DNA of 64,000 nucleotides from NCBI RefSeq assembly GCF_014647455.2, contig NZ_BMPF01000003.1, positions 124,001 to 188,000 of the forward strand. The letters are read 5' to 3'. Shown one piece after another: positions 7,402 through 63,592 of this stretch. The DNA comes from Halarchaeum grantii (GTDB taxonomy: Archaea > Halobacteriota > Halobacteria > Halobacteriales > Halobacteriaceae). Each line of letters starts with the position of its first letter. Position 1 is the first letter of the stretch. A model generated the notes under the pieces. The model had not been told where the DNA came from. It worked only from the letters and a program-made list of their open reading frames with translations, and did no database searches. The translations under genes and the position numbers were made by a program.

Positions 7402-9029
7402 CGGGTCCCGACATCGACGCCGTCACCCTCGAAGTCGTCCGCAACCAGCTCGAGAGCCTCGCCGAGGAGATGGGCCAGGTGTTGATTCGGGGCGCCTACT
7501 CGCCGAACATCAAGGAGCGCGAGGACTGCTCGACCGCGCTCTTCGACGCCTCGGGGCGACTCGTCGCGCAGGCCGAGCACATCCCCGTCCACCTCGGCGC
7601 GATGCCGGCGTCCGTCGCCGCCATCCGCGAGCGCGACCCGGAACCCGGCGACGTCTTCGTCCTCAACGACCCGTTCGCGGGCGGCACCCACCTCCCGGAC
7701 GTGACGATGGTGTCGCCCATCGGCGCCGACCCCGACGCTCGCGGCGACGGGAGCGAGGGGATCCTCGGCTACGCGGTCTCGCGCGCCCACCACGCGGACG
7801 TCGGCGGCGCGACGCCGGGGAGCATGCCCGCCGGCGCGCGCGAGATATTCGGGGAGGGCTTGCGCGTCCCGCCGACGCGCCTCGTGACGGACGGCGACGT
7901 CGTCGAGGACGTGATGGGGCTCCTGCTCGCGAACGTCCGGAACCCCGAGGAGCGCCGCGCCGACTTCCGCGCGCAACTCGCCGCGAACGACCGGGGTGCC
8001 GAGCGCCTGCGCGACCTCGTCGCCGAGCACAGTCGCCCGAAGATTGAGGCCGCCTTCGACGCCGTCATCGACTACTCGCGCGAGCGCGTCGAAGCCGAAC
8101 TCCGCGACCTCCCGGACGGCACCTATCGTGCGAGCGACGTCCTCGAGGGCGACGGCCGGAGCGAGGACGACGTTCCGATAGCCGTCACCGTCACGGTCGA
8201 CGGCGCGTCCGTGACGGTGGACTTCGACGGCACCGCCGCGCAGGTCGCCGGGAACGTGAACGCGCCGCTCGCCGTCGCCGAAAGCGCGGTGTACTTCGTC
8301 CTTCGGTGTCTCACCGACCCCGAGATACCGCCGAACCAGGGCTGTTACGACCCGGTCACCGTCGACGCGCCGCGCGGGTGCCTGCTCAATCCCGAGCCGC
8401 CGGCGGCCGTCGTCGGCGGGAACGTCGAGACGAGCCAGCGCGTCACCGACGTCGTCTTCGCCGCGCTCGCGGACGCCGCCCCCGAGCGCGTCCCCGCGCA
8501 GGGCCAGGGGACGATGAACAACCTCACCATCGGGAGCCGCGACGACGGCTTCGCCTACTACGAGACGCTCGGCGGCGGCGCGGGCGCCCGCCCGACCGGT
8601 GACGGCCTCGACGGCGTGCAGGTCGGGATGACGAACACGCTCAACACGCCCATCGAGGCCCTCGAGTCCGAGTATCCCCTCCGCGTCGACGAGTACGCGC
8701 TCCGCCCGGACAGCGGCGGCGACGGCCGCCACCGAGGCGGCCTCGGTGTCGTTCGCACCGTCACCGTCGAGGCCGACGCCACCGTCTCGCTCCTCACCGA
8801 ACGCCGCCGCGTCGCCCCGCGCGGCGTCGCCGGCGGCGCGGACGGCGCGACCGGTGAGAACCGCATCGACGGCGAGCGCGTCCCCGCGAAGGTCGTCCGC
8901 GACGTCGCGGCCGGCACCACCGTGTCGATTCGGACGCCCGGCGGCGGCGGCCACGGCCCGCCCGCCGACCGCGACCCCGCCGCGCGCGCCGCCGACGACG
9001 CGGACGGCAAGACCGGCGACGACGACTGA
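7398..9029 (+). CDS. hyuB: Hydantoinase/oxoprolinase family protein, subunit B
   Basis: A protein of 543 residues, the normal length for HyuB. It begins MTGPDIDAVTLEVVRNQLES and contains GQVLIRGAYSPNIKEREDCS, LNDPFAGGTHLPDV and, near the end, GGDGRHRGGLGVVRTV, all typical of the family. It forms the partner subunit of the HyuA ATPase encoded immediately upstream. The ATG at 7398 overlaps the hyuA stop by four bases. No permease or second catabolic gene lies next to the pair, so the natural substrate (hydantoin, 5-oxoproline, a ketone) stays open. Confidence 0.9.
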   Translation: MTGPDIDAVTLEVVRNQLESLAEEMGQVLIRGAYSPNIKEREDCSTALFDASGRLVAQAEHIPVHLGAMPASVAAIRERDPEPGDVFVLNDPFAGGTHLPDVTMVSPIGADPDARGDGSEGILGYAVSRAHHADVGGATPGSMPAGAREIFGEGLRVPPTRLVTDGDVVEDVMGLLLANVRNPEERRADFRAQLAANDRGAERLRDLVAEHSRPKIEAAFDAVIDYSRERVEAELRDLPDGTYRASDVLEGDGRSEDDVPIAVTVTVDGASVTVDFDGTAAQVAGNVNAPLAVAESAVYFVLRCLTDPEIPPNQGCYDPVTVDAPRGCLLNPEPPAAVVGGNVETSQRVTDVVFAALADAAPERVPAQGQGTMNNLTIGSRDDGFAYYETLGGGAGARPTGDGLDGVQVGMTNTLNTPIEALESEYPLRVDEYALRPDSGGDGRHRGGLGVVRTVTVEADATVSLLTERRRVAPRGVAGGADGATGENRIDGERVPAKVVRDVAAGTTVSIRTPGGGGHGPPADRDPAARAADDADGKTGDDD

Positions 9030-9061
9030 ACCTTCTTGCTCGTCGCGCGCGAAGGCGACGT

Positions 9062-9499
9062 ATGTTCGACGCCGCCACCGATGCGTTCTGGGAGCGCCAC
9101 GCGAACCCGAAGAGCGGGTGGTCGCGCGTCCTCCTCGGCCCGCTCCTCCTGCTCGCCGCCTCCCGGCGCGACCCCCGCCTCCTGCTCGCGGCTATCGCCG
9201 CGCTCGTCCTCAACCCGGTCGCGTTCGCGCGCGCCGACACCGCCGACGCGGACAGTTGGATGACGCGCGGCGTCCACGCCGAGCGCTGGTGGCTCGCACG
9301 CGGCGGGGGCGCGCTCGGTCTCGGGTGGCCGAACGTCCTCAACGTGCTGAACGTTCCGGCGTTCGCCTACGCGCTCTACGCCGCCTACACCCGGCGGAGC
9401 GCTCGCGCACTCCTCGCGTACGCCGTCTCGATGGCGCTCAAGTTCGCGTGGATCGAGGCCATCGCGCGCCGCTACGACCGCCGCGAGCGCGAGGCATAA
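9062..9499 (+). CDS. Small haloarchaeal membrane protein (DUF6653-like)
   Basis: The protein has 145 residues with about four hydrophobic segments. Its N-terminus (FWERHANPKSGWSRVLLGP) is one I associate with the haloarchaeal DUF6653 group, a match made from memory. No catalytic motif is recognised. It starts at an ATG 32 bases after hyuB and may be read from the same transcript. Function unknown. Confidence 0.7.
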   Translation: MFDAATDAFWERHANPKSGWSRVLLGPLLLLAASRRDPRLLLAAIAALVLNPVAFARADTADADSWMTRGVHAERWWLARGGGALGLGWPNVLNVLNVPAFAYALYAAYTRRSARALLAYAVSMALKFAWIEAIARRYDRREREA

Positions 9500-9555
9500 C
9501 GGTCGGCTTAGGTATCTGCCGGTTCGACCCCGCTCCCGGCGATGTGACGCCCGCG

Positions 9556-10599
9556 CTAGCGCCGGAGGCGTCGCGCGAGGAGCGCGGCGCCGGCGAGCGC
9601 GAGGCCGCCGATCGCGACACCGAACCCGGGCGACCCACCGCTCGTCGTCGGCTCCGTCGTCGGGTCGGACGGCGTCAGCACGCCGTCCGCCGTCTCGCTC
9701 GTTGACGTGGTGGCTGTCGTAGTGGTCGTCGCCGTTGTCGTCGCCGTCGTCGTCGTGTTCGCGGTGGTGGTCGTGGTCGTCGTGTTCGTCGTAGTCGCAG
9801 TCGTGGCCGTTGTCGTCGTGGCTCCGCTTCCGGCACTCCCGCCACTGCTGTCGCCACCACCGTCCGACGTCGTCGACCCACTCGTCGTGGTCGTCGACCC
9901 GTCCGCCTCGACGGACACGCTCCGCCGGTCGCTCATGCCGAGCAGTTCGAGGGATCCGGCGACGCGCTCCGTGCCCCGAACGCCGACGTAGTAGCTGTAG
10001 TCGCCGGGCGCCAGTTCGGCCATGTCCACGAGCACGTTGTACTCGCCGTCGCCGACGCGCGTCGCCGTCACCGTCCGGTTGTAACTCCCGTTGAAGAGGA
10101 CGACGTCGACGCGGTTCGGCTCGGACGACGGTCCGTCGACGGTCGTGTCGATGGAGAGGCGCTCCCCTCGCGTGACCGACGCGGACGCGTCTGCCGTCGC
10201 GGTGTAGGACGCGACGACCACGGGGACGACCGTCTGGAGCGTCCCGTCGTACGTGACGCCGGCGAGGTACGTGCCGGCGTCGAGCGAGTCACCGAGCGTG
10301 TACGTGCCGGACCCCTGCACGCGCTTCGAGGCCACGATCCGTTTCTCCCCGTTGTAGACGTTGATCGTGTAGACGTCGGCGGTCTCGGGTGCCTCGACGG
10401 TGAGCGTGAGCGCGCCGTCGACGTCGAAGCGACCGACGGACGAGATTCTGTAGTCCTGTCCGCCGATCGAGACGGTTCGCTCGGGCGTGGAGAGCTCGGT
10501 GTTCGGGTGGAGGGCGAACCCGTCGGCGGCGACGGCGACCGGCGTCGCGACGAGGGACGCGGTGAGGAGGAGGGCGGCGACGGTCCGTATCGTTCGCAT
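9556..10599 (-). CDS. Secreted surface protein with Thr-rich stalk and PGF-CTERM-like anchor
   Basis: The protein has 347 residues. A Sec-type signal peptide (MRTIRTVAALLLTASLVATP) is followed by a beta-rich extracellular part with several N-glycosylation sequons. A stalk of almost pure Thr with Ala and Asn spans roughly residues 255-305. The tail GGSPGFGVAIGGLALAGAAL ends in basic residues. PGF plus a hydrophobic helix plus Arg is the PGF-CTERM signal that archaeosortase A processes for lipid anchoring. The ATG at 10599 is preferred over the upstream in-frame GTG-type start because it gives a proper signal peptide. The gene is divergent from the giant surface protein across a 149-base shared promoter region. 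The binding partner or role is unknown. Confidence 0.8.
   Translation of the reverse strand: MRTIRTVAALLLTASLVATPVAVAADGFALHPNTELSTPERTVSIGGQDYRISSVGRFDVDGALTLTVEAPETADVYTINVYNGEKRIVASKRVQGSGTYTLGDSLDAGTYLAGVTYDGTLQTVVPVVVASYTATADASASVTRGERLSIDTTVDGPSSEPNRVDVVLFNGSYNRTVTATRVGDGEYNVLVDMAELAPGDYSYYVGVRGTERVAGSLELLGMSDRRSVSVEADGSTTTTSGSTTSDGGGDSSGGSAGSGATTTTATTATTTNTTTTTTTANTTTTATTTATTTTTATTSTSETADGVLTPSDPTTEPTTSGGSPGFGVAIGGLALAGAALLARRLRR
9704..9830 (-). repeat. Low-complexity ACN repeat encoding the Thr-rich stalk
   Basis: About 125 bases of degenerate ACG/ACC/ACA triplets (read on the minus strand) encode the poly-Thr stalk of the PGF-CTERM-like protein. Such tracts can change length by replication slippage in whole codons without breaking the frame. 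Thr-rich stalks in haloarchaeal surface proteins are commonly O-glycosylated. Confidence 0.75.
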
Positions 10600-10748
10600 C
10601 ACCCCTACGGTGTCCGCGCGTGACAAAAGGGGTTTCGTCACCGGGTACTGAAAATTATACGACACCTATGCCGTCTACCGACCCATAGTTCCTACGGCCG
10701 ATTCGAGATTGAATCAAATGGCCAAGGCTTTTACCACCAACTCAAAGT

Positions 10749-13700
10749 ATGATAACCATGAGCCACAACGCTGATACCGCCAGGAGGACAATTGGGGTCT
10801 TCCTCGTCCTCCTGGTCGTCGCCTCCCCCGTCGCGTCGGGTGTCACCCTCGCGGCGAGTGGTGGCGGAGCGGGCGGCAGCACCGCTGCCCTCTCCACACC
10901 GGCGGGATACGGCGACGTCTCGGATACCGAGACGTACGCACTGACGAACGACACGAACGTCTGGGAACGCTCGGTCTTCCCGCTTCGAACCGACACCGGC
11001 ACCGCGGACCACGTCTCCTCGGGGCCCGGAATCTCCCTCAAGAAGGGAGGCTCAGTCTCCGGCGCACTGAACAAGGACCTCGCGTTCTACGACGCCGGCG
11101 AGACGGTTCCGGTCACCTTCGACCTCTCGCGCGTCGGGATGGATACAGGCGCGTTCTACGGTGACACCGGTCAGCTCGTCGCGCTCCGCCTCCCGCAGAA
11201 CGCGTCGATGCCGACGACTCCCACGGCGCTCCGGACGCTCCTCTCGAACGAGTCGGACGCCGAGGCATCGATGGTCGCGTCGAACGTCACGTTCCCGGAC
11301 GGCGTGGCGTCCTTCGACTTCACGCCGACGAAGCCCGGCCAGTACGCGCTCGTCCTCGCCACGCCTGAATCCGGCGCGAGCGGGTACAGCGTCGATAGCG
11401 GCACCCTCGAGCAGAACGGCACGGTCACGGTCGTCGGCTTCGACTCGCTGATGGTCCAGAACCACCGTTCGACGGTCTCCACGCCCGACGACGCGACGGT
11501 CGGTTCGAACGTCACCTTCGGCGTGGACGCGAACACCGCGCCCGCGCCGAACACCACCCAGATGGTGGTCCTCTACGACAACGAGACTTTCATGCTCTCG
11601 CAGTCCACGGTCAACGTCACCGACCTCACGGGCGACGTGAACGCGAGCGTCGAAACCGGGATCTCCGAGGTGAACGGCGACTTCCGCGTCGTCGGGTCGC
11701 CGAGCGCACTCGGGATGAACGCCACGGAGCAGCGCGTCTCCTACCCCGTGAGCGCGCAGGCGCTCTTCGACTTCCTCGCCGAGAACCGCGACTTCGGCGA
11801 GAACACGACGGTGACGAACGGCACCGACGCCGTCCCGCTGAACGCCACCGGCACGCTCGCGGAGATGAACGCGAGCGGGACGGTGAACGTCTCCGTGCCC
11901 GGTGACTGGTCGGCCGGCGACTACCACTGGCTCCACGTGAGCTCCGCCGCCGACGGCGCGGACGTCTCGAGCTCGCAGGGCTCGCTCACGCTCCGCGAGG
12001 GCGTCGACCTGAACGTCAGCGCGAACGCCACATCCGTCGTGCGCGGCAGCGACGTCGCGTTCACCGTCACGCGTGCCGATACCGGCGAGGGCGTGAACGC
12101 GACCCTCACCATCGACGGCGCGACGTACGAGACGGACGCGACCGGCACCTACGTCCACACCTTCGAGTCGGGCGGCACCTACACCGTGAGCGCGACGCGC
12201 GCGAACACGGACACGACGGTCTTCGCGTCCGACGAGACGACCGTGGACGTCGCGGCGTCCGCGATCGCCGTCTCGAACCTCAGCGCGCCGAGCGTCGTCC
12301 TCCAGAACGAGACGTTCGCGGTGAACGCGACGCTCCGGAACACCGGTGACGCCGAGGGCACCCGAACGGTGAACCTCACCGTCAACGGCACCGTCGTCGA
12401 GAGCGCGACGCGGACGCTCGGCCCCGGCGAGAACGCGACCGTCTCCTTCGACCACGCCTTCGGTAGCGGCGAGCGCGGGCCCGTCACGCTCGGCGTCGGC
12501 GAGGCGTCCGCCGACGTCCGCGTCGACGCGCCGGCGACCTTCGAGTACGCCTCGCTCTCCGTCCTGCCGACGACCGTCGCCGCGAACGAGACCGTGAACG
12601 CGTCGGTCACCGTCCGGAACACCGGTGACCGCGATGGCAACACGACCGTCACCCTCACCGCGAACGGCACAGCCATCGACAACGCGACGCGGACGCTCGG
12701 CGCCGGCAACGAGACGACCGTCGACTTCTCGACGGCCTTCGAGTCGCCCGACACGTACGCCGTCAGCGCCGGCGGCCTGCCCGCGCGGACGGTCACGGTG
12801 CTCGAACCCGCGACCTTCACCTACAGTAACCTCACCGTCACGCCCGATACGGTCGACGCGGGCGCGAGCGCGAGCGTCTCCGTCACCGTCTCGAACACCG
12901 GCGGCATCGGCGGCATCGATACTGTGACGCTCAGCGAGGGCGGCCAGAACGTCACCAACGCCAGCGTCTACGTGGACGCGGGCGCGAGCGAGACGGTGAC
13001 GTTCGAGCGCGTCTACACCGAGCCCGGCACGCAGACGCTCGGCGTCGGCGACCGCACGACGACGCTGAACGTCACGGCGGTCGACGCCGTTCCGCCGAGC
13101 GTCGTCCTCGCGGAGCCGTCGACCGGTGACGTCGCCTACGGCGCGACGCTCTCCTTCCGCGTGCGCGACGAGACAACGAACGTCACGGACGTCACGGTGA
13201 ACGCGACGACGTCCAACGGCACCGTCGAGCGCGTCGACCTCCTCGACGCCACGGACGCGACGAACGACACCACCGTCGCCGTCGACACCGACGGCTGGCA
13301 CGAGGGCGACGCGACCGTGAACGTTACGGCCGTCGACGCCGAGGGCAACGCGGTCACGAAGACCTACCGCTTCGACCTCGTCTCCGCGCCCGCCTTCACG
13401 GGCGTCTCGCCGACGACCGAGTCCGGCGAGACCCCGACCGTCACCGTGACGTACGCCGACGACGGGCCCGCGCCCGAGCACGCGGAATCCGGCATCAACG
13501 CCTCGAGCGCGACCCTCTCCGTCGACGGCACACCCGTCGACTTCGACGCCACCAGTGCGACTGAGGCGAGCGTCACGCTCGACGCGCTCGCGTCCGGCAC
13601 GCACAGCCTGAAAGCGGTCGTTTCGGACGACGCCGGTCACACGAGTGCGCGCACGTGGACGCTCGACGTGGACGCGGACGCGCCCACGGTGAACGTCACG

Positions 13701-16700
13701 CCACGCAACGCCGTGGTGAGCGACGGGTCGCCGTTCGAGGCGGCGGTCGTCGCGAACGACCTGGCACTCGCGAACGCGACGGTCGTCTACGCGAACGAGA
13801 CGGCGGTCGTGCACACGGAGAACGTCACCGACCGCGCGCGCCTCACCGGCGGGACGGTCACGACGACGTGGGACGGCCGCAGTGACGGCGCGTTCGTCGC
13901 CGACGGCACGTACACCGTGACCGTGAACGCGAGCGACGCCTACGGCCACACCGCGACCGCGAACACCATCCTCCGCGTCGACACGACCGGGCCGACGGTC
14001 ACGGACGCGGCGGTGACGCCGACCGCGACGAACGCAACCGGCACCGTCACGGCGAATGCGACGTTCGCCGACCCCGCCAACGTGACGAGCGCGACCTACG
14101 TCCTCCGGAAGACCGGCACGGGCGTGCGGGTGAGCAACACGACGACCGGCGACGTGGCGTCCGCGACGTTCGACGCGAGCGACTTCGTCGTTGACGGCGA
14201 CTACCGCCTCACCGTCGTCGCGGTCGACGACGCGGCCAACCGGAACAGTACGGCGACGGACGCGACCGTCACCGTCGACTCGACGCCGCCCGAACTCGCC
14301 GCGAGCGTCACGAAGAACGGCTCGAACGGCACCGTGACGGTCGCGACGCCGAGTGGCGAGAACGTCTCGAACCTCAGCGGCACCGTCGCGCACGACGGGG
14401 GCACGACCGAACTCACGAACTTCACCACCATCGGTGACGGCTCGTACAACGCGACGTTCAACGCCACCGACGGCGGCGTCTACGACGTCACCGTGAGCGG
14501 GAAGGATAAGGCCGGGAACGTCGGGCACGCGAGCGCGAGCGCCGAGATTCGGACGGTGAGCGAGCAGAGCAACGTCACCGTCTACCTCGAGGACTCCGGC
14601 ATCGTCGCCGAGCTGAACCTCACCACGACGGTCGATCAGGGCTTCTACTCGATGTCCGGGAGCGACCGACCGTCCCAGAAGCTCCCGTCGAACGCGTCGA
14701 GCGTCTCGACGCTCGTCGGGCAGGTCAGCCAGAGCATCGAGGGGAACATCACGACCGGCTCCACCGTCGCGTTCCCCGCGACGGGCGCTGTGAACGCGAA
14801 CGGCGGGAACTCCTTCACCGTCCAGTACTACGACGCGCGGGACGAGTCGTGGAAGAGACAGGACACTACGCGCGTCGAGAACTACAACGTGACCGACGGT
14901 AACGGAAACGAAGTCGTGAACGACACCTACTGGGTGGCGAACGTCAGCCACTTCTCGACGTACACCGGTTCCGTAGAGGACAACACCCCGCCGACGATCG
15001 GGTTCGAGTCGCTGAACGCGCCCGCGAACGCGACGTCCGCGTGGGTGAACGCGACGATTACCGACGACAGCGGCGTGAACGCGAGCACCGTCACGCTCGC
15101 GTGGAACGGGGGCGACGTCACCGGCGAGGCGTCCGTCACCGAGACGCCCGACGGGAACGCCACCGTGGCGTACGAGGCGACCGGCCTCGAACCCGGCGCG
15201 TCCTACGACGTGACCGTGAGCGCGAACGACACGAAGGCGAACGCGAACACGACGAACGCGACGTTCACCGTCGACCCGGACACCGTCGAGCCGACGGCGA
15301 CCATCGACTCGCCGACCGACCACGAGGCGTTCCCCGCCGGGACGGAGTCGGTCGACCTGAACGCGACGTTCGGTGACGCGGACTCCGGCGTCGCGGACGT
15401 GAACGCAACGCTCGACGGCACGCCCCTCACCGGCGCGAACTTCACGGCAGGCACGTTCAACGCCACCGTCTCGCCCGGCACGGGCGAGCACACGTTCGCC
15501 CTCGCCGTCACCGACCGCGCCGGGAACGTGACCGAGACGAGCGCCACCTTCACCGTCCGCGAGGACACCGCGGGTCCGGTCGTCGACGTCACCTCGCCGA
15601 GTGAGAAGACGTACGAGAACGACACGACGAGCGTACCGCTGATCGCGAACGCGACGGACATCGCGTCCGGCGTCGACTCCGTCACCGTCCTCGTCGACGG
15701 GACGGACGTCACGGCCGACGCGAACACGACGGACTACACGAACGTCACGGCCGACATCGCGGTCACGCCCGGGAGCACGCACGCCGTGAACGTGAGCGCG
15801 ACCGACGACGCCGGCAACACGAACTGGACGAACGTCACGTTCGACGTCGCGCCCGACGAGGGCGCACCGACCGTGGACATCACGCCGGCCGACGGCACGA
15901 CCCTCTCGAGTAGCACGACGAGCGTGAACGCGACCGTGGCCTACTCGGACGACCTCTCCGCCATCGACCCGACGGACGTCACGCTCCAAGTCGACGGCAC
16001 GAACGTGAACGCGAACGCGGACGCGATGCTGACCGCGAAGAACTCGACGCGCGCGAACGTCACCGTCTCGAACCTCTCCACGGGGTCGCAGCACAGCATC
16101 ATCGCGACCGTCACCGACGCCGCCGGGAACACCGAGACGGTGAGCGCGACTCTCTCGGTCGCCGACGGACCGTACCTTCGGGTGACGAGGGGGGGCCTTT
16201 CCGCCGCCACGCTCGACGCCGGCGACACGCTCACCGCCGGCGAGAACGTCACCATCACCGCCGACGTGGCGAACGTCGGCGACGAACCCGGCGAGCGCGA
16301 CATCACACTCCAGCAGAACGACACCGTCGTCGCCGCACAGACCGTCACGCTGAACGCCGGCGCGACGACGACGCTGGCGTTCGAGCGCACGCTCGGGACG
16401 CCTGGAACGTACGCGTTCGCGGTCGGCGAGACGAGCGCCGGCACGGTCTCCGCCGACGCGAACTACAGCGTCATCGGGAGCGTGAACGCGACGTCGCTCA
16501 CCGAGGGCGACGGCGTCACCGTCACCGTCACCGGGACGAACGAACTCGCGTCGGCGCAGACGGTGAGCGTCACCGTCGCGGTGCCGAACGCCTCGCTCTC
16601 CACGCCGGTGTCCCTCGACCTCCCGGCGAGCGGCCAGAACAGCACCACCGTGGCGTTCAGTACCCTCCCCGCCGGGACGCACGACGTCCTCGTCGGCGGG

Positions 16701-39479: not shown

Positions 39480-40403
39480 ATGAGCAGATTCGTCGTCGCG
39501 CTCGGCGGGAACACGCTCCTGCGCTCCGGTGACGGCACCGTCGCCGAGCAGCGCGCGCGGGTCCGCGAGACGCGCGACGCCCTCGCGGTCCTCCACGAGC
39601 GCGGCCACGACGTCGTCCTCACGCACGGCAACGGCCCGCAGGTCGGGAACCGGCTGCTCGCCGAGGAGCAGTCCGACGGCGAGGCCGAACCGCTCGACGT
39701 CCTCGTCGCCGAGACGCAGGCCCAAGTCGGCTACCTCCTCCAGAACGGGTTCGGGGACGCGTTCGGCGGCCCGCCAGTGCCCGTCGTCACGCGCGTCCGC
39801 GTCGCCCCCGACGACCCCGCCTTCGACGACCCGACGAAGCCCGTCGGCCCCTACTACTCGGCGGCCGACGCCGCCGAGAAGCCCTTCGCCACGACCGAGG
39901 TCCACCGCGGGGGCGACGAGACGGCCTACCGTCGCGTCGTCGCCTCCCCGGAGCCCGAGGCCGTCCTCGAAGCCGACCACATCGCCGCGCTCGTCGCCGA
40001 CGCCTCCGGGCCCGTCGTCTGCGGCGGTGGCGGCGGTGTGCCGGTCATCCACGACGGCGACGGCGGCCACGAGGGGGTTCCCGCCGTCGTCGACAAGGAC
40101 CACACGACCCGCCTCGTCGCGGACGCCGTCGACGCCGACGCCGTCGTGATGCTCACGGACGTCGACGCCGTCTATCGGAGCTTCGGGACGCCCGAACAGG
40201 AGCCGATTCGGGAGGCGACGCCCGCCGATCTGCGCGCGCTGCTCGACGACGGCGAGTTCGCCGCCGGGAGCATGGCGCCGAAAGTCACCGCGTGCGCGCG
40301 ATTCGTGACCGAGACCGGCGGACGCGCCATCGTCACCTCGCCCGCGGAACTCGACGCCGCGCTCGACGGCGAGGCGGGAACGACCGTGACGGCCGACGAC
40401 TGA
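39480..40403 (+). CDS. arcC: Carbamate kinase
   Basis: A protein of 307 residues in the amino-acid kinase fold. It starts MSRFVVALGGNTLLRSGDG and carries LTHGNGPQVGNRL, then PVVCGGGGGVPV and VVDKDHTTRLVAD, with the nucleotide-binding GSMAPKVTA near the end. All are standard for carbamate kinase. It interconverts carbamoyl phosphate plus ADP with ATP, ammonia and CO2, the last step of arginine fermentation. No arcA or arcB gene is adjacent in this window. The ATG at 39480 starts at the conserved N-terminus. Confidence 0.92.
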   Translation: MSRFVVALGGNTLLRSGDGTVAEQRARVRETRDALAVLHERGHDVVLTHGNGPQVGNRLLAEEQSDGEAEPLDVLVAETQAQVGYLLQNGFGDAFGGPPVPVVTRVRVAPDDPAFDDPTKPVGPYYSAADAAEKPFATTEVHRGGDETAYRRVVASPEPEAVLEADHIAALVADASGPVVCGGGGGVPVIHDGDGGHEGVPAVVDKDHTTRLVADAVDADAVVMLTDVDAVYRSFGTPEQEPIREATPADLRALLDDGEFAAGSMAPKVTACARFVTETGGRAIVTSPAELDAALDGEAGTTVTADD

Positions 40404-40538
40404 ACGCCCGCGATTTGGGCACGCCTATGTGTGCATCGGACCAACGGGCGCCCATGCGCACACCGGGGTGGCCGGCGGCGTGACGCGCGACGGACCGCAG
40501 ACCCGACTGACGCCCCCGAGCCATCGGGGGTGGGTCGC

Positions 40539-41762
40539 GTGAGCGTGGACCGACGCGTGCTCGCCCTCGGCCTCGCGCGCCTCGCCGACTCGTTCGGGAA
40601 CGCGCTCCTCATCGTCGCACTCCCCCTCTACGTCGTCAGCGCGCACGTCCACGGCGGCGTCCTCGCCCTCCCCGCCGCCGTCGTCAGCGGCGTCGTCCTC
40701 GCCGCGTTCGGCGTCTTCGACGCCGTGATTCAGCCGTGGGCGGGCCGCCTCTCCGACCGCCTCGGGAGGCGCCGCGTGTTCGTCCTCGTCGGCCTCTGCG
40801 TCCTCGCCGCCACCAACCTCGCGTTCCTCGGGACGCACACCTATCTCGGTCTCCTCGCCGTCCGCGTCGTCCAGGGCCTCGGCGTCGGCCTCACCGTCAC
40901 CGCGAGCGTCGCGCTCATCAACGAGTACAGCACGCCCGACTCCCGTGGCGTGCACTTCGGCGTCTTCAACGCCCTCCGACTCGTCGGCTTCGGGGTCGGC
41001 CCCGTCGTCGCGGGCGTCCTCGTCGCGCACGGCCCCTTCGACGTCCTCGGGCACGCCGTCGGGGGGTTCGCCGCCGCCTTCGACGTCGCCGCCGTCGCCG
41101 CCGGCCTCTCGCTGGTCGTCGTCTACGCGCTCGTCCGCGACCCCGTCGAGACGAGCGCCGCCGCCGCGAACGACCTCGGCCTCACCGTCAGCGACGGCGC
41201 GGGCGGGCTCGACCCCGTCTTCGCGCTCGGCGGCGCCACGCTCGTCGTCGCCCTTGGAATCGCCTTCTTCGCCGCCATCGAACCCGCCATCAACGCCCGC
41301 CTCGGACAGGAGGCGGTCGGCTTCGGCCTCGAGTTCGCCGCGTTCGTCGCCGCGTTCGTCCTCGCCCAACCCGTCGCCGGCCGGCTCTCCGACCGACTCG
41401 GGCGCAAGCCGTTCGTGGTCGCCGGCCTCTGCCTCGCCGCGCCCGCGCTCCTCGCGCAGGGGTTCGTCGCCGCGCCGTGGCAGATGGCGCTCACCCGCGC
41501 CGTGCAGGGCGTCGGCGCCGCGATGGCGTTCGGGCCCGCGCTCGCGCTCGTCGGCGACTACGCGTCGGGCGGCGACGACGCCTCGACGCTCTCGATACTC
41601 ACGATGGCGTTCGGCCTCGGCGCCGGCGTCGGCCCCGTCGTCGCCGGCCCCCTCGCCGACTACGGCTTCGCCGTCCCGTTCGCCGTCGCCGCCGCCCTCT
41701 CCGTGCTCGCCGCACTCGTCGTCCAGACGCAGGTGCCCGACGACCGCGTCGAGGCCGCGTGA
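40539..41762 (+). CDS. MFS transporter (paralog of the one at 37246)
   Basis: A protein of 407 residues and 12 hydrophobic segments. The MFS loop motifs RLSDRLGRRRVFVLVGL and RLSDRLGRKPFVVAGL sit at the same places as in the paralog at 37246, and the start segment VDRRVLALGLARLADSFGNA aligns closely. The GTG at 40539 is chosen by that alignment; the frame stays open further upstream without similarity. It lacks the TetR-type palindrome found at the paralog. The substrate is unknown. The 135 bases before it hold no supported gene. Confidence 0.83.
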   Translation: MSVDRRVLALGLARLADSFGNALLIVALPLYVVSAHVHGGVLALPAAVVSGVVLAAFGVFDAVIQPWAGRLSDRLGRRRVFVLVGLCVLAATNLAFLGTHTYLGLLAVRVVQGLGVGLTVTASVALINEYSTPDSRGVHFGVFNALRLVGFGVGPVVAGVLVAHGPFDVLGHAVGGFAAAFDVAAVAAGLSLVVVYALVRDPVETSAAAANDLGLTVSDGAGGLDPVFALGGATLVVALGIAFFAAIEPAINARLGQEAVGFGLEFAAFVAAFVLAQPVAGRLSDRLGRKPFVVAGLCLAAPALLAQGFVAAPWQMALTRAVQGVGAAMAFGPALALVGDYASGGDDASTLSILTMAFGLGAGVGPVVAGPLADYGFAVPFAVAAALSVLAALVVQTQVPDDRVEAA

Positions 41763-41795
41763 GGGCGATGAAAACGCAACTGCTCCGAGGACGCC

Positions 41796-60911: not shown

Positions 60912-61051
60912 TGCCGGTGAGTGGGCGCCGACCCGTATAACGCTCGGGAAGGCGGCGCCGACCACACCACCCGATGGCGGTGTGCGAGGACCAGCGGAAG
61001 CGGTGCGGTGGCCCGCACGCCTTTAGCGGTCCGGCACCTTGCGTCCGCGTG

Positions 61052-62038
61052 ATGGCAGGGCGGGACCTCGCCGGACTCGGACAGCGCCTCTATCGGTGGG
61101 CGGCGTTCACCGCCGACAGACGCATCCTCACGACGCTCGTCCTCCTCGTCGGCTTCGCCCTCTTCGGGCCCGTCGCCGGCTTCGTCCTCCCCACCGCGAA
61201 GAACCCGCTCGCCGACTCCAGCCCCACCATCTCCCTCGTGTCCGCGCTCCTCAGCGGGACGTTCTTCCTCTTCAGCATCGTCGTCACCGTCAACACCCTC
61301 TTCGTCTCCCAACAACAGCACCCGCTCGGCCAGCAGTTCGGCCGCGTCCAGAGCGTCGTCGAGTACCGACGCCAACTCGAGGACGTCGTCGACACCGAGC
61401 ACGTCCCCGCCGAACCCGATGCGCTCCTTCGGCTCCTCTCCGGGAGCATCCTCCGGCGCGCCCAGTACGTCGAGGCGGAGATCGGCGCCGCCGACTTCGA
61501 ACTGCGCGAGGACCTCGACGGCTACGTCGAAACGCTCGCCGAGGAGACCGGCGAGATGAACCGCGGCCTCGAAGACGCCGACACCACCCTCGACGTCGTC
61601 CTCGCGACCATGGACTACGACCACGACAAACAGATCCACGACCTCCGCGCGATCCGCGTCACCCACGCCGACGACCTCGACGCCCAGACCGCGGAACGCA
61701 TCGACGAGATGCTTCGCCTCCTCCAGTACGCCGCCACCGCCCGCGAGTACTTCAAGACGCTCTACACGCGCGAGGACCTCGCCGCGCTCTCCCGCGACCT
61801 CGTCCTCACCGCCGTCCCCACCGCCGCCATCGTCGCCGCCTTCATGCACTTCCTCAACGACCTCCCCGACAGCAACCTCCTCGTCGTCGGCGTCGAGGCC
61901 GTCGCCTTCGCGCCCTTCGTCCTCGTCGGCGCCTACGTCTTACGCGTCACCCTCGTCAACAGCGCCCAACCCGCCGCCGGCCAGTTCGTCGTCGGCGACG
62001 ACCGCGGAGATATCGAGGGCATACCGGACGGGGACTAA
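61052..62038 (+). CDS. Four-helix membrane protein with central helical domain, unknown function
   Basis: A protein of 328 residues. Two transmembrane helices at the N-terminus (ILTTLVLLVGFALFGPVAGF and VSALLSGTFFLFSIVVTVNT) and two near the C-terminus enclose a hydrophilic helical middle of about 170 residues with EYRRQLEDVVDTEHVPAEPD. No catalytic motif is recognised. TATA-like CTTTAGC at 61021-61027 puts transcription start near the ATG at 61052, so it is close to leaderless. Confidence 0.68.
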   Translation: MAGRDLAGLGQRLYRWAAFTADRRILTTLVLLVGFALFGPVAGFVLPTAKNPLADSSPTISLVSALLSGTFFLFSIVVTVNTLFVSQQQHPLGQQFGRVQSVVEYRRQLEDVVDTEHVPAEPDALLRLLSGSILRRAQYVEAEIGAADFELREDLDGYVETLAEETGEMNRGLEDADTTLDVVLATMDYDHDKQIHDLRAIRVTHADDLDAQTAERIDEMLRLLQYAATAREYFKTLYTREDLAALSRDLVLTAVPTAAIVAAFMHFLNDLPDSNLLVVGVEAVAFAPFVLVGAYVLRVTLVNSAQPAAGQFVVGDDRGDIEGIPDGD

Positions 62039-62047
62039 GAGGGAGCG

Positions 62048-63592
62048 TTACGTCGTCTTCGCCGTGTCCGTCGAGGCACCGTCGGGTTCGACGTCGAGTT
62101 TGTCGTCGTCCTCGAACGTCGCGCCGGTTACGACAACCGTGTACGTAGTGTTGTCGACGGTCGCGACAATCACGTTGTTCGGGCCTCCGCCGGTCATGAA
62201 CCTGGCGTCGGAGAGATCGATATCTCCGGTGTGGGCCGTGATCGAGAGAGAACGCTGCCCGCGTTTATCGATTTCAACGTCCGACGCAGAGAGGTTGACG
62301 TCGCCAGCCGTCGCTTTGACCTCGATCGATCCTCGGGTGGAGACATCCACGGCAGGCGCGACAACCGACTCCCCAGTCATCGTTATCGTCGCGCTGTTCA
62401 TCGATTTCTCGGAGTGGACCGTCACGTTACGTAGGTCGAGCGTTCCGGAGGTTGCCTCAATATCGGCAGGCCCTGAACTGGTGAGTGAGGAATCAACTGC
62501 GGTCATCGTGTTCCCGGTCAGCGTGAGCGTCGGATTATTGAGCGATTTCTCGGAGTGTATTCTCGAATCCTTAACGGAGAGCTCGCCGCCCGTCGCCGTA
62601 AGCTTGAGGAGACTGTCACTGATGATCTCCGAGTTGTCGCGTACTTCCACGCTCGTCCCAGTAATCGAGAGCACGGACTTCTTCGCGTCTTTCGTCTCCG
62701 TCACTGTCGAGTTGCTAATAGAGACCGTGTCCGCGGCGCTGATGTCGAGGCGCCCCTTCGAGCGTACCGTCGAGTTCGTGAGTTCGACGTTCGCGCCAGA
62801 GAACGTGGCCTCGGTTAGATCGCGGTCGTTCCCCACTTCCGCACCGTCGAGACGGAGACAGCCGCGTGCGACGAGCGATATGCCGGCCTTCGGCCCCTTG
62901 TTCGCGTTCACGAGCGTTCCCGCGAAGTAGATTTCGTCCGCACGGATTACTGCGCCCTTATCCGGATGGATCGTCACGCTCTCCGGAACGATCAGGGGTA
63001 CCTCGGTGTCGAGTCCGGTACCCAGATCGGGCGTCGGTTCACCAGCGTCATACGCTCCGTTCCCGTTGGTGTCGAGGAACGCCTCATCCGTACCGATTCC
63101 CGACCAGTCGACCGGACAGACGCTGGTACCGCTCTCGACGTCACTGTCATCATTCGTCACGGGCGTGGTCGTGTTCGTGAAGCGCTCGACGTCGAGGACG
63201 TCGTTCTTCGGCGTGTAGACGACGTAGACCTTCGTCAGGTGGCCGTCGAGCGTGTCGCTGTAGTCGTAGTGCCACGTCGAGGCGGGGTCGAAGTCGCCGC
63301 CGCCGTCGATGGTTCCGTCGGTGAAGGGGACGCGGACGCTGTCGGTCTCGGACTTGAGGACGGCCTCGAGCGTGTCGGGGTCGAAGCTGTCGCCACCGAG
63401 GTGGACGACGTCGACGGTCGTGTCGTTCGCGCTGACGTCGACCTGCCCGACGGTGTGGCCGGCGGCGCTCCCGTCGAGCGAGTGGTCGATGTAGGCGGCG
63501 CCGCTGGCCGTCACCGTAATCGCGACGATACCCGTCAGTAGGAGCGTGGCGAGTACGCTGCTCACTCCCCGTGAATCGGTGCTGGTTCCCAT
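62048..63592 (-). CDS. Pilin-like N-terminus fused to a long repeat-rich beta surface domain
   Basis: A protein of 514 residues. The N-terminus (STDSRGVSSVLATLLLTGIV then AITVTASGAAYIDHSL) looks like the class III signal and helix of haloarchaeal type IV pilins. The middle has LDTNGNGAYDAGEPTPD, a calcium-like Asp/Asn loop. The C-terminal half repeats short beta units of Ser/Thr-rich pattern (RIHSEKSLNNPTLTLTG, TVHSEKSMNSATITMTG), suggesting a beta-helix. Pilins are usually 120-200 residues, so this would be an adhesin displayed on or near pili. Base composition changes inside the gene (see findings). The start at 63592 fits the pilin signal length. Confidence 0.75.
   Translation of the reverse strand: MGTSTDSRGVSSVLATLLLTGIVAITVTASGAAYIDHSLDGSAAGHTVGQVDVSANDTTVDVVHLGGDSFDPDTLEAVLKSETDSVRVPFTDGTIDGGGDFDPASTWHYDYSDTLDGHLTKVYVVYTPKNDVLDVERFTNTTTPVTNDDSDVESGTSVCPVDWSGIGTDEAFLDTNGNGAYDAGEPTPDLGTGLDTEVPLIVPESVTIHPDKGAVIRADEIYFAGTLVNANKGPKAGISLVARGCLRLDGAEVGNDRDLTEATFSGANVELTNSTVRSKGRLDISAADTVSISNSTVTETKDAKKSVLSITGTSVEVRDNSEIISDSLLKLTATGGELSVKDSRIHSEKSLNNPTLTLTGNTMTAVDSSLTSSGPADIEATSGTLDLRNVTVHSEKSMNSATITMTGESVVAPAVDVSTRGSIEVKATAGDVNLSASDVEIDKRGQRSLSITAHTGDIDLSDARFMTGGGPNNVIVATVDNTTYTVVVTGATFEDDDKLDVEPDGASTDTAKTT

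Follow-up and report, generated by a model that had tools for sequence, protein, structure and literature searches.

A probable modular type IV pilin of Halarchaeum grantii and the likely exchange of its passenger at a fixed locus

The gene, its head and its passenger

We investigated a 64,000-nucleotide stretch of the Halarchaeum grantii genome (contig NZ_BMPF01000003.1, positions 124,001 to 188,000), called the window below, and in it one gene on the minus strand whose product is probably a modular type IV pilin of the minor type. A small pilin head is followed by a linker and a large beta-helix, the passenger. We consider it likely that this passenger was exchanged at its fixed locus after the lineage split from a sister strain, Halarchaeum sp. 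CBA1220, whose DNA is otherwise 95% identical. The features are listed here in window coordinates; pLDDT is the predicted local distance difference test score of the AlphaFold2 model, and GC3 is the fraction of G or C at third codon positions.

62048..63592, minus strand: gene for the probable modular archaeal type IV pilin of 514 amino acids (open frame and match to Pilin_N, PF07790)
63566..63592, minus strand: putative class III (prepilin) signal peptide MGTSTDSRG, expected to be cut after G9 (read from the sequence)
63491..63559, minus strand: hydrophobic N-terminal helix, residues 12-34 (AlphaFold2 secondary structure, at low pLDDT)
63182..63448, minus strand: predicted pilin beta-sandwich head, residues 49-137 (pLDDT about 80-91; matches 8fj5)
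63086..63181, minus strand: linker, residues 138-169, containing the composition break and the 5' homology break (63133-63165)
62123..63085, minus strand: passenger, residues 170-490, with a DTNGNGAYD motif and then a predicted right-handed parallel beta-helix (AlphaFold2 model)
62127..63132, minus strand: exchanged block, without DNA homology to the collinear CBA1220 locus (blastn over 64 kb, junctions and composition)
62048..62126, minus strand: conserved 3' end of the gene (ATFEDDDKLDVEPDGASTDTAKTT and the stop codon), nearly identical in CBA1220, GC3 0.88
60974..62038, plus strand: downstream neighbour, a conserved protein of unknown function used as a syntenic marker (amino acid identity 98% in CBA1220 and 82-88% in H. 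acidiphilum and H. nitratireducens)

Sequence and predicted structure identify residues 1 to ~140 as an archaeal type IV pilin with signal peptide, helix and beta-sandwich. The rule by which prepilin peptidases cleave class III signal peptides is well established; on inspection the N terminus reads MGTSTDSRG, the expected cleavage point, and then VSSVLATLLLTGIVAITVTASG, which leads into the hydrophobic helix of the model. The match to Pilin_N is borderline: the protein scan gave 23.6 bits (E 9.8e-5), just under the cut-off of 25.2, and the genome search gave 28.7 bits for this gene, above it. Orthologues from two of the three other species described below pass, and the fold agrees. With the NCBIfam model TIGR02537 the protein scores 10.7 bits, under the cut-off of 20, and matches in genomes G004 and G001 lie above it. 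The head shares both sequence profile (E 1.1e-6 in a comparison with solved archaeal pilins) and fold with the Haloferax volcanii type IV pilus subunit 8fj5 (Z 9.0, 88 aligned residues, 3.1 Å), the fold match being supportive and not decisive, as common immunoglobulin-like (Ig-like) folds also attain Z near 8. The Haloferax subunit, however, has 145 amino acids and carries no passenger. The H. grantii genome holds nine Pilin_N matches (eight besides this gene), ten T2SSF matches, representing assembly platforms, and one prepilin peptidase of family A24. By analogy with known pilins the head would be cleaved by prepilin peptidase and incorporated into a filament.

The linker includes a disordered segment (residues 137-157 in the model), and the passenger behind it comprises ~320 residues, from about 170 to 490. 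AlphaFold2 predicts its first half with pLDDT 85-95; confidence drops in the last third and reaches about 60 near the end. The passenger matches no family in Pfam or NCBIfam, and a Foldseek search with the whole model returned nothing at E <= 0.001. When the Foldseek list was realigned with VIA-align, residues 164-492 shared their overall fold (Z 17-19.5) with right-handed beta-helices such as phi29 gp12 (Z 19.5), the tailspikes of phages P22 (16.8) and CBA120, and GH28 polygalacturonases, among them an exopolygalacturonase (19.1). Sequence identity to these proteins is 6-10%, and the likeness is one of fold only. We found no evidence for catalysis by this beta-helix and no match to a phage family; a PHROGs search of the passenger gave only weak and inconsistent matches. 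As in modular pilins, the extra domain is not specific to pili; its boundary is seen in the AlphaFold2 model. Across the order, the start of the module is present in 59 of 392 genomes, and besides pilin heads at least two further classes of secreted N-terminal region carry it (head classes assigned by inspection).

Two observations concern the module elsewhere. In nine proteins (L047, L048, L050, L051, L055-L057, L064 and L071) the DxNGNGxYD motif and the beta-helix start follow short N termini containing GGTATYALFSDSTQASGTIQAA, which by eye resemble secreted proteins of the SipW/TasA type, not pilins. In a related genus of the family (L014, G001:C1:1837000-1856900), a gene with head, threonine-rich linker and beta-helix lies in a low-GC stretch (local GC about 48-55%) close to what on inspection appear to be integrase- and resolvase-like genes, and this offers a lead on mobility.

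Breaks in homology and composition

The nearest relative was found by tblastn among plasmid records: plasmid pCBA1220-01 of Halarchaeum sp. CBA1220 is perfectly syntenic with the window. In blastn the 64 kb are collinear at 95.1% DNA identity with 98% aligned, and the block 62127-63132 is the sole unalignable stretch longer than 150 bp. Neighbouring proteins are 93.6-98.5% identical between the two strains and the head (codons 1-146) is 93.8% identical, whereas codons 147-514 retain 36% amino acid identity. DNA homology runs through the head at 92.6% down to 63133, its final ~25 bases being ragged, is lost, and returns at 62126 with 96.5%; the last 26 codons are nearly identical in CBA1220 apart from one extra GAC codon. 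In CBA1220 an Ig-like domain (about 110 amino acids) and a different beta-helix take the place of the block. On this alignment, replacement affected the passenger and spared the head on one side and the final 26 codons on the other, both of them conserved.

An alternative explanation is that the passenger was never replaced and instead diverged very fast by point mutation, insertion and deletion under diversifying selection. In its favour, the two beta-helices are 43% identical over their last ~144 residues (identical tail included), and the head, at 93.8% against about 98% for its neighbours, has diverged slightly faster than they have. However, where residues are identical in the two strains the codons differ in 41% of cases within codons 147-514 and in 5-9% elsewhere, the CBA1220 protein contains an entire additional Ig-like domain, and both boundaries are sharp while the remainder of the 64 kb aligns. 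We therefore regard this explanation as strongly disfavoured and very unlikely.

The homology break coincides with a change in base composition, which a first-pass annotation made from the letters alone had placed around 63160. The GC counts it quoted are exact (42 of 60 at 63241-63300, 29 of 60 at 62521-62580), and the best cut falls at codon 146 (63154), inside the linker, with an odds ratio of 4.8 for G- or C-ending codons before the cut against after it in a Mantel-Haenszel test stratified by amino acid; the associated z of 4.5 is somewhat optimistic, because the cut was selected as the best one. Overall GC content is 0.62 in the gene and 0.71 in the window. In codons 1-144 it is 0.67, with GC3 0.93; in the later codons it is 0.60, with GC3 0.74. 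With amino acids held fixed, the drop is mainly one of synonymous third positions. Measured against codon usage across the genome, the head is unremarkable (z 1.4) and the tail lies far below (z -8.7). Among 220 genes of at least 250 amino acids, sampled from 464 kb of this genome, the break from high to low GC3 ranks fourth, a rank that is approximate since the genes came from a simple open reading frame finder and had their starts trimmed. The exchanged block itself has 60% GC and GC3 0.73, and GC3 recovers to 0.88 in the conserved last ~25 codons, a recovery that the first-pass annotation did not see. The sequence of GC3 values, high in the head, low in the block and high again at the 3' end, reveals that the low-GC block and the exchanged block coincide. 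The composition change thus marks a recombination boundary.

Passengers on orthologous heads

A whole-protein scan of genome contigs gave no confirmed relative; the head alignment identified orthologous heads at the same locus in H. nitratireducens, H. acidiphilum and H. rubridurum, flanked by a gene of the phosphoadenosine phosphosulfate reductase family and a conserved gene of unknown function. Their passengers differ in layout: a threonine-rich linker and beta-helix in H. nitratireducens; a threonine-rich linker, Ig-like repeats and then a beta-helix in H. acidiphilum; and a threonine-rich linker with Ig-like repeats in H. rubridurum, where no beta-helix is recognisable. Sequence pattern and profile A1 served to assign these domains; the label Ig-like was given by eye and has weak support from models. 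The AlphaFold2 model of the H. rubridurum protein is of poor quality, with a mean pLDDT of 54. It is compatible with a sandwich head and with repeats rich in strands, and we give it no weight. Including CBA1220 and the window, at least four passenger layouts occur on orthologous heads in five Halarchaeum genomes. Compared with the window, the flanking proteins of the three species are 82-95% identical, the head is 40-47% identical and the tail about 27-32%. The whole pilin gene is a divergence hotspot.

The composition contrast recurs in these orthologues. The beta-helix is poorer in GC3 than the head in H. acidiphilum (odds ratio 3.1), H. nitratireducens (2.05) and CBA1220 (3.3), so that with the window gene four of the four Halarchaeum orthologues that have a beta-helix show it. 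In H. acidiphilum the Ig-like part between head and helix keeps GC3 0.91, and the H. rubridurum orthologue, without a beta-helix, has no GC3 drop. One could assume from this that the beta-helix has long had this composition, through repeat codons or relaxed codon selection, and that the break says nothing about transfer. In other haloarchaea with GC3-rich heads, however, GC3 does not generally fall in the module (median odds ratio 0.85 across 18 proteins), though it does in single cases, which argues against an intrinsic constraint of the fold; a test of 43 module proteins likewise gave no support outside the genus to the view that low GC3 is imposed by the fold. Moreover, the break in the window coincides with a true break in homology, and an old property would account for the composition and not for the exchange. 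We consider this explanation a plausible minority view. Because the beta-helices of three other orthologues are also GC3-poor, the contrast, on the sequences compared, characterises the beta-helix passengers that Halarchaeum has as a pool, and it gives no date for the exchange. Two readings of it remain: passengers may circulate in a pool fed by lower-GC lineages, or codon selection on Halarchaeum beta-helices may be weaker. A stronger drop (GC3 from 0.79 to 0.44, z 8.2) occurs in another haloarchaeal pilin-like protein with the module (L089, G249:C1:2078500-2083500), which is a good candidate for a recent foreign passenger.

The first-pass annotation had proposed a conserved secretion and assembly head joined to a horizontally acquired passenger, to be refuted if the same two-part composition were found across the genus. 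Exchange on a conserved head is borne out by the clean swap of the low-GC block relative to CBA1220. A distant or foreign donor is not established: the two-part composition is indeed found in the other orthologues with a beta-helix, with H. rubridurum lacking the drop, and composition alone does not show a foreign donor because these beta-helices are GC3-poor and no donor was found.

Several points weigh against the reading of a passenger exchanged since the split from CBA1220. Given the similarity of the last ~144 residues, the block is partly an old homologous allele and not an unrelated domain. The change may have taken place in either strain, H. grantii or CBA1220. The passenger had no match in phage records, nor did its peptide patterns in IMG/VR, and the only match of the whole protein among plasmid records was CBA1220 itself. 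In the module tree the window's module groups with those of H. nitratireducens and H. acidiphilum (support 94/97) on a branch so long (2.31) that the tree says little about the donor. Filament assembly, surface display and ligand binding are argued by analogy.

Exchange, display and related systems

Under the reading that we favour, exchange of the passenger at a fixed locus, the passengers on orthologous heads would be alleles: a beta-helix, Ig-like domain plus beta-helix, threonine-rich linker plus beta-helix, or Ig-like repeats alone. Since the flanks are collinear, exchange may have proceeded by homologous recombination anchored in the head on one side and in the 3' end and downstream gene on the other, with the incoming DNA probably from another Halarchaeum-like lineage. 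The head would then be cut by prepilin peptidase and built into a pilus by one of the assembly platforms encoded in the genome itself, and on that pilus the passenger would be offered to a ligand outside the cell, for which a polysaccharide or another surface target is the most likely candidate. Selection may maintain the diversity of passengers. Tentatively, the locus could be a surface-typing locus of Halarchaeum, in which long-lived and very different passengers are swapped between the conserved head and C-terminal end, so that otherwise near-identical cells differ in the specificity of their pili, with viruses or the choice of mating partners perhaps supplying the pressure; we would put this below an even chance.

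Block-wise change of a surface protein with constant ends also resembles programmed variation, where a single genome remodels its own passenger through a shufflon, silent cassettes or a diversity-generating retroelement. This is disfavoured and highly improbable here: the passenger module has a single copy in the genome, although a second could be missed in an assembly that is 97% complete; the genome has no PF00078 reverse transcriptase match; and no inverted repeats are present at the junctions of the block.

The architecture corresponds to that of modular type IV pilins described in bacteria, such as PilB and PilC of Streptococcus sanguinis (Raynaud et al. 2021, PMC8179133; review PMC10191384), which likewise combine a small pilin module, a linker and, at the C terminus, a bulky module not restricted to pilins. 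In the bacterial proteins the passenger is thought to be displayed by the filament, perhaps at its tip (PMC8179133). That survey, however, covered architectures of bacteria with the bacterial signature IPR012902, whereas the head in the window is of the archaeal Pilin_N type; unlike the surveyed cases, its passenger has no Pfam family, and its exchange at a fixed locus is visible between near-identical genomes. ComZ of Thermus thermophilus is a pilin with a large beta-solenoid thought to bind extracellular DNA (PMC8179133); in the window protein the beta-helix instead comes after the pilin module and linker, and the DNA-binding role of ComZ has no counterpart in our evidence.

The exchange itself recalls the deletion-coupled insertions of Haloquadratum walsbyi, in which divergent sequence occupies the exact same position in a collinear background; in the surface gene hmuI of that species both ends are common to two strains and the middle differs (PMC3119063). 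H. grantii and CBA1220 show the same pattern: at one position their sequences are different, and the surroundings are collinear. The Haloquadratum cases lie between strains of one species and often span many kilobases, whereas the exchange in the window covers about 1 kb within one pilin gene and keeps both ends of the protein. The case thus joins modular pilins and deletion-coupled insertions in an archaeal pilin. In the open-licence literature searched we found no earlier report of such a case, and we do not claim priority. As a natural case of an archaeal pilin with an exchanged passenger it is a clear one, since comparison with the sister genome narrows the break to a few tens of bases. 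It brings archaeal heads into the concept of modular pilins, and its locus could serve as a test system for asking whether recombination switches pilus specificity. It also illustrates that an intragenic composition break spotted by eye can mark a true recombination boundary, composition by itself being insufficient as proof.

Elsewhere in the window, the second most divergent patch relative to CBA1220 is a major facilitator superfamily transporter gene (40398-41783). Its DNA identity is 77-81% amid 95%, and two short segments of 101-146 bp fail to align; this gene, too, may have been replaced. Conservation is also lower (83-95%) than in the rest of the window at ~9000-16700, the region of a protein annotated in CBA1220 as a giant surface protein with CARDB domains. 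The replicon with which the window's contig is collinear, pCBA1220-01 (603 kb), was deposited as a plasmid; it carries genes for ribonucleotide reductase and for the translation factor eIF-1A, which suggests that it may in nature be a second chromosome.
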